From the NCBI RefSeq assembly GCF_003966695.1, contig NZ_AP018827.1, positions 310,001-374,000 of the forward strand: a stretch of 64,000 nt of DNA, in the 5' to 3' direction. Position numbers and translations under genes: made by a program. Position 1 is the first letter of the stretch, and every line of letters begins with the position of its first letter. The notes beneath the pieces were generated by a model. The model was not told the origin of the DNA. It made no database searches and saw only the letters and a list, made by a program, of their open reading frames with translations. Positions 10,314 to 16,401 of the stretch are shown one piece after another. The stretch comes from Asticcacaulis excentricus (lineage in GTDB: Bacteria; Pseudomonadota; Alphaproteobacteria; Caulobacterales; Caulobacteraceae).

Positions 10314-10389
<76 letters not shown>

Positions 10390-10504
10390 TTCCTCCTTCC
10401 GCCAGCGTCCGGCGAAGTTGAAAAAATCCTTATTTTGTGGTGCTTTAGCGCTCGTGACATCCATGAGGGTACGCCCTGTCCGCGCGCATCCGGGTAATTT
10501 GGTT

Positions 10505-10548
10505 GTCACGCTGGGGGTCACGCTCAAACACTGCAAAATGGTGACCCC
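10505..10548. promoter_or_regulatory. Repeated GGTCAC motifs upstream of integrase remnant
   Basis: GTCACGCT occurs twice in tandem (10505-10512 and 10517-10524). GGGGTCAC (10514-10521) is matched by the inverted copy GTGACCCC (10541-10548), directly ahead of the integrase start. Clustered short direct and inverted copies are what arm-type integrase binding sites look like. Inference from position. Confidence 0.45.
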
Positions 10549-10549
10549 A

Positions 10550-10680
10550 ATGGCCATGACTGATACGGCGATCCGGGCGGCCAAGCCCTTGGATAAACAG
10601 TATAAGCTTTACGACTCAGGCGGCCTGTTCATGATAGTGAGGCCTTCCGGGCAAAAGCTCTGGCGGTTCAAGTATCCTCC
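10550..10680 (+). pseudogene. Tyrosine integrase, N-terminal fragment (P4/DUF4102 type)
   Basis: The frame beginning MAMTDTAIRAAKP and continuing through KLYDSGGLFMIVRPSG and KLWRFKY matches the arm-binding N-terminus (DUF4102) of P4-type site-specific integrases. Homology stops abruptly at about 10680, after about 43 codons; the rest of the frame is unrelated. Such integrases (about 400 aa) lie next to the tRNA they use as target, exactly the position seen here, 160 bp from tRNA-Lys. An in-frame ATG at 10538 is an alternative start. Truncated by deletion. Confidence 0.8.
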
Positions 10681-10864
10681 TGAAACGCCAAGACCGCCAC
10701 CTCGTAGGCATGCGTCATCCAGGGTATGACGGGCAGGGCGACCGCAGGACGGTTTGCCCGTCGTGGGGACGCTTCTTCGTTGTCAGAGGCCCGGCTTTCC
10801 CCGCCGGTTCTGGCGCTTGTACTGCGTCCATCACCCTCCATCGGCATCCTCTGGTGTGCACGCC

Positions 10865-11071: not shown

Positions 11072-11329
11072 AAGCAAAAGGCGCAAGTTCGCTCGGTAAC
11101 AAGGCCCGTCCGTCAGATGATTTTGCCACCCGAATAACGTTCAAATCAGGTTTTTTGATTCGCGTTTTTTGCAGGGCAAGTGCGCTGCGTTTTTTGCCGA
11201 TAAATTTCCCGAGATTCAAAATCTGGGTTCTATGTGACCGGTGTGTTCAACCTCACTCCGCCCAAGTCTCCGATAATCTACACATAGGCGGGCGTAATGC
11301 TCACCCACAGTCTGACCGTTCATTGCACG

Positions 11330-11546
11330 CAATCCACGAAACGCATGACAATTCTATCTGCCTGCGCTTGATGGAAGGTGCGGACATCTATCAGATTGCC
11401 AAAATTGCCGCACCAGCGTTGATATGATTGAGCAGTTCTATGCGGCTCACATCAAGGACCGCATCGACGCGCAAGCTGTCAATGTTCGAAAGGAGAAGAA
11501 GCTGGTCCGTGGTCGATCTGTTCCGGAAACGGATATTCAGAATTAG
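11330..11546 (+). pseudogene. Tyrosine integrase, C-terminal fragment with frameshift
   Basis: LRLMEGADIYQIAK (about 11360-11402) continues, after a one-base deletion in the AAAA run near 11400, as CRTSVDMIEQFYAAHIKDRI and on to a TAG at 11546. This is the catalytic C-terminus of a phage-type integrase; the Tyr in EQFYAAH would be the nucleophile. The same strand as the N-terminal fragment at 10550 suggests one or two decayed integrases with the middle deleted. The HxxR part upstream is already unrecognisable. Confidence 0.75.
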
Positions 11547-11567
11547 GGGATAGCCAGATAATCATAC

Positions 11568-11596
11568 TCGACGCGGCGGTTTTGCCTCTTTATAAT
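11568..11596 (+). promoter_or_regulatory. Promoter of tRNA-Leu
   Basis: TCGACG (11568-11573) and a perfect TATAAT (11591-11596), spacer 17 bp, ending 14 bp before the tRNA. Confidence 0.65.
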
Positions 11597-11610: not shown

Positions 11611-11907
11611 GCGGGCATGGCGGAATCGGTAGACGCAACGGACTTAAGCCAGGGATTGAGTGCCTTCGGGGAAACCCGAAGCGTAGAACTGCTCAAATTC
11701 GGGGAAGCCTTCGCTGGTAATCCCGAGCCAAGCCGGTCATCGATCGGAAGGTGTAGAGACTAGACGGGCAGCACCTAACCCCGCTCCGGGTATGGTGAAG
11801 GGATAGTCCAGACCACGAACGCGAAAAGCGCGGCGGCGAAAGCCGAAGTGGTAAGAAAATCCGTCGGCCGCATGGCCATGCCGGTTCGAGTCCGGCTGCC
11901 CGCACCA
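11611..11907 (+). tRNA. tRNA-Leu (anticodon TAA) interrupted by a group I intron
   Basis: Exon 1 is 11611-11645 and exon 2 is 11856-11907; joined they give an 87-nt class II tRNA with an encoded CCA. Acceptor GCGGGCA pairs perfectly with TGCCCGC. Anticodon stem ACGGA (11638-11642) pairs with TCCGT (11860-11864). The loop becomes CTTAAAA with anticodon UAA, a long variable arm follows, and the T arm is GCCGG-TTCGAGT-CCGGC. The intron separates U34 from A35, the same place as in cyanobacterial and plastid tRNA-Leu(UAA) introns. Confidence 0.93.
11646..11855 (+). ncRNA. Group I intron (IC3-like, 210 nt, no ORF)
   Basis: Self-splicing intron core recognisable by eye against the cyanobacterial tRNA-Leu intron. 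P1 pairs exon CTT with intron GAG (U-G at the splice site). P2 is CTTCGGG-GAAA-CCCGAAG (11664-11681). P4 pairs TTCGGG with CCCGAG (around 11698-11704 and 11722-11727). The conserved runs ATCCCGAGCCAAGCC (11720-11734) and GGAAGGTGTAGAGACTAG (11746-11763) mark J/P6 and P3-P7, with AGTCC near 11806 closing P7. It ends with G11855 as the terminal guanosine. No homing endonuclease is encoded. Confidence 0.9.
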
Positions 11908-11919
11908 CGCATCTGGTTT

Positions 11920-12044
11920 TAGAGCGAAATGATTTTAGGTGGAAACGGCTTATCGCTATAGCGCCTCCCCTGAAACGAAGTTCGGCGAAGCCAAATCAGG
12001 GGAGGCGCTTTAATTATGCTTCCGTTTAAAATCATCTCGCTCTA
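11920..12044. repeat. Nested palindromic repeat running into the VOC gene
   Basis: Outer arms TAGAGCGAAATGATTTTA (11920-11937) and TAAAATCATCTCGCTCTA (12027-12044) differ at one position. Inner arms AGCGCCTCCCCTGA (11960-11973) and TCAGGGGAGGCGCT (11996-12009) are exact. Together they form a cruciform-like element of 125 bp. Its right outer arm encodes the last residues and the stop of the minus-strand VOC protein. Confidence 0.8.
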
Positions 12045-12429
12045 GGGGGGCTTCGTCGCTCACGCGGCCGAATTTAAGCAAATTCCCATGCGGGTCATGG
12101 ATGTAAAATTCGGTCATGCCCCACGGCCTCGGCAGGATCGGCGACAGGTGCAAAAGTTCCTTTTGCCGGAACTCTTCGTGCAGCCTGTCTATGCTGCCGC
12201 CGCGAATATAGACCGCACTCTGTTCGCACAGGTCGCGGCGATTTGTCAGCCAGAAGTGCAGTTCAATCGGTGAACCGAAGGCATCGCGTCTGAGGATCAG
12301 ATAGTTGTGATCCTCAAACACGGTGGCGTCGAAACCCAGAAACTCGCTGTAGAAGCTCCGGGTTTCGCTTAGCGACAGGCTGGGCAGGATAGGCAGAACC
12401 TCAAGGCGATCGTCCTCTGCCGCCGCCAT
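12010..12429 (-). CDS. VOC-superfamily (glyoxalase/bleomycin-resistance-like) protein
   Basis: 139-aa protein with the vicinal-oxygen-chelate pattern: ILPSLSLSETRSFYSEFLGF (first beta-alpha module), IELHFWLT, and the C-terminal WGMTEFYIHDPHGNLLKFGR module. Possible metal ligands are His58 of ELHFW and Glu of TEFYI. Members are dioxygenases, glyoxalases or drug-binding proteins; no substrate can be assigned. The start follows the GH3 stop by one base (TAA-C-ATG), so it is probably co-transcribed with that gene. The last 10 or so residues (RDDFKRKHN) are encoded by a palindromic repeat, so the native C-terminus was likely altered. Confidence 0.82.
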   Translation of the reverse strand: MAAAEDDRLEVLPILPSLSLSETRSFYSEFLGFDATVFEDHNYLILRRDAFGSPIELHFWLTNRRDLCEQSAVYIRGGSIDRLHEEFRQKELLHLSPILPRPWGMTEFYIHDPHGNLLKFGRVSDEAPLERDDFKRKHN

Positions 12430-15384: not shown

Positions 15385-16401
15385 ATGGATACGATTGCAA
15401 CGCCCCTGATGTGGGGGACGTTCGCGGCCTTTGTTGTTGTCGCGCTGTTTATTGATTTTTTTGCTCTGAATAAACAAGGGGCCCACAAGGTCTCGATGAA
15501 GGAAGCGGCCATCTGGTCGCTGATTTGGGTCGCCACCTCCTTCGTCTTCCTCGGCATTATGTGGTGGGAAATGGGTGGGCTTTCGGGCGATGCGGCCGCC
15601 AAGGCTCTGGCCAATACTAAGGCGCTGGAATTCACCACCGGCTATCTGGTCGAAAAGGCGCTGGCGGTCGATAATATCTTCGTCTTCCTGATGCTGTTCA
15701 CCTATTTCGCCGTGCCGGCGGAGTATCAGAAGCGCGTGCTGATGATCGGCATTCTGATGGCGCTGGTCCTGCGCGCCGGCATGATCGTGGTCGGTGCGTG
15801 GCTGGTGGCGCAGTTCCACTGGGTGCTCTACGTGTTCGGCGCGTTTCTGGTGTTCACGGGCTTCAAGATGTGGCTGGCCGCCGGTCAGGAGCCTGATCTG
15901 GAGAGCAATCCGGCCCTGAAATGGGTGCGCAAGACCTTCACCATCTCGCCCAACTACGACGGAGAGAAGTTCTTTACCCGCATTGATGGCAAGCGCATCG
16001 CCACGCCGCTGCTGATCGTGGTCATCTTGATCGGTATTATCGACGTGGTGTTTGCGGTGGACTCGATCCCGGCCATCTTCGCCATCACCACCGATCCGTT
16101 TATCGTCCTGACCTCCAACGTCTTCGCTATTCTGGGCCTGCGCGCCATGTACTTCCTGCTGGCCGGGATGCACGAAAAGTTCCATCTGCTGCCCTATGGT
16201 CTGGCGCTGGTGCTGGTCTTTGTTGGTACCAAGATGCTGCTGATCGACATCTATAAGATCCCGATTGTGTGGTCGCTTACTGCCACGGCCTCGGTACTGG
16301 TCCTGACCATGATCCTGTCTATCCTGATCAAACCGAAGGGCGACGCCCATCCGACCGGGGCCTTCCCGTTCGATTCGAAGAAGAAAAACGACGAAGGCTA
16401 A
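15385..16401 (+). CDS. TerC/Alx-family membrane protein, probable Mn2+ exporter
   Basis: Integral inner-membrane protein of 338 aa with about nine hydrophobic segments. The TerC signature shows in the paired acidic motifs LVEKALAVDNIFVFLMLF (about 88-105) and IIDVVFAVDSIPAIFAIT (about 216-233), whose Asp and Glu residues are thought to coordinate the metal. E. coli Alx and related TerC proteins export manganese and load secreted metalloenzymes. The yybP-ykoY element directly upstream strongly supports Mn control. The C-terminus is short and charged (FDSKKKNDEG). A terminator follows within 10 bp. Confidence 0.92.
   Translation: MDTIATPLMWGTFAAFVVVALFIDFFALNKQGAHKVSMKEAAIWSLIWVATSFVFLGIMWWEMGGLSGDAAAKALANTKALEFTTGYLVEKALAVDNIFVFLMLFTYFAVPAEYQKRVLMIGILMALVLRAGMIVVGAWLVAQFHWVLYVFGAFLVFTGFKMWLAAGQEPDLESNPALKWVRKTFTISPNYDGEKFFTRIDGKRIATPLLIVVILIGIIDVVFAVDSIPAIFAITTDPFIVLTSNVFAILGLRAMYFLLAGMHEKFHLLPYGLALVLVFVGTKMLLIDIYKIPIVWSLTATASVLVLTMILSILIKPKGDAHPTGAFPFDSKKKNDEG

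Follow-up and report, generated by a model that had tools for sequence, protein, structure and literature searches.

The window analysed here, a stretch of 64,000 nucleotides from Asticcacaulis excentricus (NZ_AP018827.1, positions 310,001 to 374,000), holds at 11611-11907 a tRNA-Leu(UAA) gene that is invisible to ARAGORN unless introns are allowed. With introns allowed, the program calls tRNA-Leu(taa) of 87 nt with a 210-nt intron, written gactt-Intron-aaaat, which places the insertion between U34 and A35; once spliced, the exons form a normal tRNA-Leu(UAA) cloverleaf with a long variable arm and the UAA anticodon. An earlier note, made from the letters of this DNA, had proposed the need to remove this insert, its boundaries, its insertion point and its group I nature, and on each of these our analysis agrees.

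By its conserved core and covarying helices the insert belongs to the group I introns. The Rfam model RF00028 matches 11636-11825 at 50.7 bits (gathering score 50; E 2.5e-11), and this intron is the only match in the genome; the related gene L085 reaches 54.2 bits. Of the 84 pairs in the consensus of 36 related genes, 44 show compensatory changes; this consensus covers both the cloverleaf and P1-P9, P7 being partly a pseudoknot that lies outside the explicit fold of this alignment. A U.G pair at the 5' splice site is found in 36/36 of the aligned genes (columns 35-50), and the base before the 3' exon is a G.

Features of the tRNA-Leu(UAA) locus, in window coordinates
Feature	Position	Strand	Remarks and basis
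Integrase C-terminal relic, frameshifted	11317..11555	+	72% and 62% identity to the intact G104 integrase
Promoter-like site of the tRNA gene	11568..11596	+	TCGACG-17-TATAAT; sequence
tRNA-Leu(UAA) 5' exon	11611..11645	+	ends at U34 (...GGACTT)
att core GACTT/AAAATCC, split here by the intron	11641..11862	+	attL/attR sequences of relatives
Group I intron, 210 nt	11646..11855	+	last base G (omega G); RF00028, ARAGORN, covariation
tRNA-Leu(UAA) 3' exon	11856..11907	+	AAAATCC..., CCA encoded

The relic of a tyrosine integrase lies upstream of the tRNA gene at a distance of 56 bp. Promoter-like sites similar to that of the window gene stand upstream of the tRNA gene at loci L078 and L079 as well. 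Several further features of the neighbourhood were seen. An antisense ORF of 71 aa over the intron gene (11693-11908, minus strand) is probably a spurious gene call; directly 3' of the tRNA gene (11917-12045) there is a long imperfect inverted repeat, 69% identical over 131 nt to its own complement, which is perhaps a terminator or a repeat element. The N-terminal fragment of another integrase (10376-10726; Arm-DNA-bind_3, PF13356) adjoins a tRNA-Lys(CTT) at 10314-10389. A scan of viral contigs with an unrelated neighbour protein (ORF 15385-16401) gave no match.

The only tRNA-Leu(UAA) found, and a broken native copy

An intact second tRNA-Leu(UAA), which the earlier note had named as evidence against its reading, was sought in the genome; among the 44 tRNA genes detected none was found, the leucine set besides the window gene consisting of CAA, UAG, GAG and CAG. 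By standard wobble rules UUA is read by the UAA tRNA only, and UUA codons are present, if rare, in the window's genes. The window gene is therefore probably essential and would have to splice, and to read UUA the host appears to rely on this copy with its intron. The rarity of these codons would suit a non-functional tRNA pseudogene left by an island, with some unrecognised tRNA reading UUA, but against it stand the perfect fold of the exons, the intact group I core, the promoter-like site upstream and the failure to find any other Leu(UAA) gene, so that we give this reading almost no credence.

A DNA search of the organism's own genome recovered, as the one further trace, 37 bases of exon 1, 97% identical, at contig C1:1051311-1051275. 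Here a tRNA-Leu(UAA) without an intron is preserved as its 5' half, broken in the anticodon loop, where it runs into a fragment of an IS110-family transposase; it sits downstream of an M28 peptidase gene. No 3' half of the native tRNA-Leu(UAA) was found in the genome. In another genome of the genus (G137), the M28 locus carries an intact intronless tRNA-Leu(UAA) and represents the empty site, while the locus is split in G104 and G099 (the latter an Asticcacaulis sp.) and holds an intron-bearing gene in G145, G133 and G114. Because the window gene (at about 321 kb on C1) and the broken 5' half (at 1051 kb) are far apart, a rearrangement must be assumed.

Intact elements in relatives

The genome under study holds a 5' half and an integrase fragment rather than an intact integrative element; intact ones are found in its relatives. 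G104 has the M28 locus in common with this genome. The order there runs from a tRNA-Leu(UAA) 5' half through an intact tyrosine integrase of 425 aa, 53 bp, a complete intron-bearing tRNA-Leu(UAA) with 95% identity to the window gene and the cargo to the 3' half; the sequences at the two ends are GGACTTAAAATCC/TCATAG and TTCCAC/TTAAAATCC/GTCGG. Since the cargo includes a MobA/TraA relaxase-helicase and a conjugative coupling protein, along with Vsr and a C5 DNA methylase, the element, some 28 kb long, appears to be of the integrative mobilizable type. Both ends and the same order were found in G104 (28 kb), G116 (Caulobacter sp. Root655; 49 kb, with two tandem integrases), G028 (7 kb) and G087 (87 kb), and left ends only in G099, G147 and G078. 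A 5' half, a short gap and an intron gene with no integrase make G061 look like a further relic.

The attachment core of these elements is the anticodon loop (GACTTAAAATCC), and the intron of the replacement gene falls inside it; the same core borders the elements of the relatives without interruption. What attL and attR have in common is the anticodon loop and the 3' stem, and in the split stems GA nearly always precedes the loop. The native 5' half remains joined to element sequence, as in ...GGACTTAAAATCC/TCATAG at L078. A tyrosine integrase lies beside a tDNA att site, intact in the relatives and as a relic only in the window, and what the elements bring is a whole separate tRNA gene, not a tDNA fragment that restores the target.

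These findings bear on an alternative in which an ordinary intron, vertically inherited or homed, sits at a resident tRNA-Leu(UAA) locus with an integrase fragment beside it by chance. The family does include resident intron-bearing copies without an integrase (L035-L037, L039, L040, L045-L051, L053-L055). The window gene, however, is off the native locus, which holds a broken intronless 5' half, and the neighbouring fragment belongs to the same integrase and lies at the same spacing as in intact elements (53-111 bp from integrase to tRNA), all of which makes this alternative very improbable. A resident, non-mobile origin of the window copy was accordingly rejected, as was a chance integrase neighbour, the latter by the repeated spacing across many genomes.

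Some loci near this subject have other arrangements. The third replicon of the same genome encodes an intact integrase of the same broad family (C3:124793-126067, L188) with a tRNA-fMet-like 3' fragment upstream. In G028, two integrases about 30% identical (L083, L084) are followed by only the 3' half of the intron and exon 2, possibly as islands with a core inside the intron or as decayed copies. Conventional islands at tRNA-Leu(UAA) occur at L088 and L089/L090, with an intact intronless gene and a second 3' half some 10 kb or 41 kb downstream. On a plasmid of Bradyrhizobium sp. ISRA443 (L234), an intron-bearing tRNA-Leu directly follows a degenerate integrase of the same family, a relic like that in the window.

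Survey of integrase loci

A scan with eight integrases gave 311 relatives in the genome collection, of which the best 80 were taken, and two viral contigs and 15 loci from a class-wide search were added; the loci, being picked by integrase similarity, are not a random sample. An intron-bearing tRNA-Leu(UAA) lies downstream of the integrase at 44 of the 101 loci (best 80 of 311 plus additions), mostly 40-180 bp after it. Of these 44, the split UAA 5' half was recognised at 39 by a fixed pattern and at L080, L133 and L183 on inspection; at L143, one of the 44, the split gene is a Leu(CAA) instead. Among the 101 loci (best 80 of 311 plus additions), none was seen to have a UAA replacement that both lacks the intron and keeps the core intact. 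The one intronless UAA replacement seen, at L125, has an altered anticodon stem (GCACTTAAAATGC, vs GACTTAAAATC in both cores of the locus), and L177 has a split UAA with no replacement within 2.2 kb.

Replacement of other tRNAs takes mostly another form. At 22 of the 101 loci (best 80 of 311 plus additions) the replacement is an intronless tRNA-Leu(CAA); at L105 (5463-5783) a Leu(CAA) replacement carries a divergent group I intron, apparently between U33 and C34. A split CAA without a replacement nearby was seen at 13 loci, mostly from Acidobacteriota (best 80 of 311 plus additions), which would fit a dispensable CAA. Other loci have UAG, Ser or Tyr replacement genes, and some members of the integrase family behave conventionally, restoring an fMet, Arg or Phe gene. 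That every replacement has an intron was considered and rejected, since most of those for CAA, UAG, Ser and Tyr lack one. At L192, an element of the fMet type, a second fMet gene with an altered anticodon stem lies downstream, followed by a degenerate intron-bearing Leu-like gene.

Core avoidance in replacement genes

A replacement that kept the core would itself be a target. Leu(CAA) replacements avoid the core GACTCAAAATC: at positions 30-32, only 1/22 has GAC (GAT 13, CAC 5, GGC 3), while resident CAA genes from 142 genomes of the class have GAC in 90/117 (GAT 26, CAY 1), a difference with a Fisher p of 1e-10. When near-duplicates are thinned, 1/17 CAA replacements keeps GAC (p 2e-8). At L106, L107 and L178, position 32 is the sole difference between the 5' half of the replacement and the split copy over 42-44 aligned bases. 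UAA replacements, for their part, leave both exons unchanged (GACTT and AAAATC) with the intron between them, so the core is broken in the DNA and would be whole in the spliced RNA. There are counter-cases: Ser(UGA) and Tyr(GUA) replacements (L140, L153, L157) share the loop of the split copy and differ in the stem alone, and the CAA replacements L128 and L169 keep positions 30-32.

Distribution and trees

The earlier note had treated a tRNA-Leu intron as exceptional in this group, the familiar proteobacterial cases being others, and this found no support. A core-model search found introns in 49/385 genomes of the class (Alphaproteobacteria). The tRNAs that carry them include Leu(UAA) and Arg(CCU) besides others, and at the loci inspected the two were hosts about equally often. 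The figure of 49/385 (~13%) is an upper bound for introns in resident genes of the class.

The integrases of the UAA-intron type do not form one clade, with 9 changes in a reduced tree, and a single origin of this type was rejected (p-AU 2.5e-52). In the tree of the intron genes, element and resident copies interleave with 17 changes, the window gene groups with the G104 and G099 elements and with L035-L037, and the Arg(CCU) introns are a separate clade. As the integrases are non-monophyletic and the intron genes interleaved, the association between intron and element was made more than once, or the module was exchanged.

Related genes also turned up on plasmids and in phage. L233 (NC_004464.2:61823-62122) is a complete-looking intron-bearing tRNA-Leu with 72% identity to the window gene, and more than 1,200 other plasmids carry a gene like it; on plasmids of Enterobacterales and Acinetobacter it stands beside aac(3)-IId, the neighbourhood having been inspected in two records. 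The L233 gene resembles the resident lineage L053-L055, which may hint at the donor of the resistance module. Partial matches to the intron gene occur in the phage sequence LR756501.1:190287-190526 and in Gordonia phage Daredevil (41852-42011).

With these frequencies and trees in hand, one can ask whether the locus is a relic of the same element in which the intron is a mere passenger, the tRNA-Leu having been captured from intron-carrying hosts and the intron having no role in integration. Among Alphaproteobacteria it is not rare for a resident Leu(UAA) gene to have the intron, such genes are interleaved with the element copies in the tree, and a few replacements of other tRNAs retain the core loop, as this reading would have it. 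Yet at the loci surveyed every UAA replacement with an intact core has the intron, vs at most ~13% of the genomes of the class; there were several origins or exchanges of the UAA type; and CAA elements reach the same end through substitution. We thus consider a passenger role unlikely.

A replacement gene, proposed to be masked by its intron

We suggest that the window gene is quite probably what remains, domesticated, of an integrative element which supplies a substitute for the tRNA it destroys instead of repairing it, the intron masking the att site in the DNA while the mature tRNA is unchanged. On this model, built from DNA comparisons, the tyrosine integrase would target the host's intronless tRNA-Leu(UAA) and place the element in its anticodon loop, and the resulting split of the host gene would be permanent, because the element brings no matching 3' half. 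The element would instead supply, just downstream of int, a complete tRNA-Leu(UAA) with its own promoter, and with the intron inside the integrase core site this replacement gene would offer no att site at the DNA level; splicing, which we presume to occur in vivo, would restore the unchanged tRNA. The integrase would presumably be unable to use the interrupted core, and such immunity may have been selected for. In the Asticcacaulis genome, the element would then have decayed to the integrase fragment and the native 5' half, and a rearrangement would have separated the window gene from the native locus. The earlier note had thus been right to suppose a role for horizontal transfer and had missed the vehicle: an element that targets the anticodon loop, with an integrase relic adjacent and the split target elsewhere.

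A family of this kind appears to destroy an essential tRNA gene and so to make the host depend on the element's copy, which an intron or substitutions in the core appear in turn to shield from being targeted again. Such a family would offer a route for the horizontal replacement of an essential tRNA gene. For group I introns of the anticodon loop that have no homing genes, it would provide both a vehicle and a function open to test. More widely, we speculate, tentatively and with more doubt than confidence, that the group I introns in tRNA anticodon loops of bacteria are kept and spread as DNA-level camouflage against integrases that target this loop; if true, this would account for where in the tRNA they sit as well as for a horizontal spread that involves no homing endonucleases. 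Genes of the kind described here will be overlooked in genome annotation, since ARAGORN without its intron option reports none of the intron-bearing copies.

Comparison with known systems

The intron itself is of a known kind. A group I intron in tRNA-Leu(UAA) has reportedly been seen in Pseudomonas SMCC D0715, a precedent in a proteobacterium, and the window intron resembles the proteobacterial introns of tRNA-Leu(UAA), tRNA-Arg(CCU) and tRNA-Ile(CAU) in being group I and in the anticodon loop; the Arg(CCU) introns differ in belonging to their own clade. We know of no link between proteobacterial tRNA group I introns and an integrase or a split target. In cyanobacteria and plastids, the group I intron of tRNA-Leu(UAA) is well known and is described as resident (PMC4476775, PMC5733544). 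By these descriptions the window intron is like it in tRNA, in the insertion between U34 and A35, and in being compact and ORF-less, and unlike it in belonging to the replacement gene of an integrative element.

In the open-licence literature, as far as our partial coverage of it goes, we found nothing on whole-gene replacement or on an intron as the disruption of an att site, and we regard the novelty of this combination as provisional. The closest comparison is with the Islander islands, in which a carried tDNA fragment regenerates the tRNA target (PMC4383910). The elements described here share with those islands a tyrosine integrase, crossover in the anticodon loop and pieces of tDNA at the borders; unlike them, they do not mend the split target and bring in its place a complete substitute gene whose core is disrupted.
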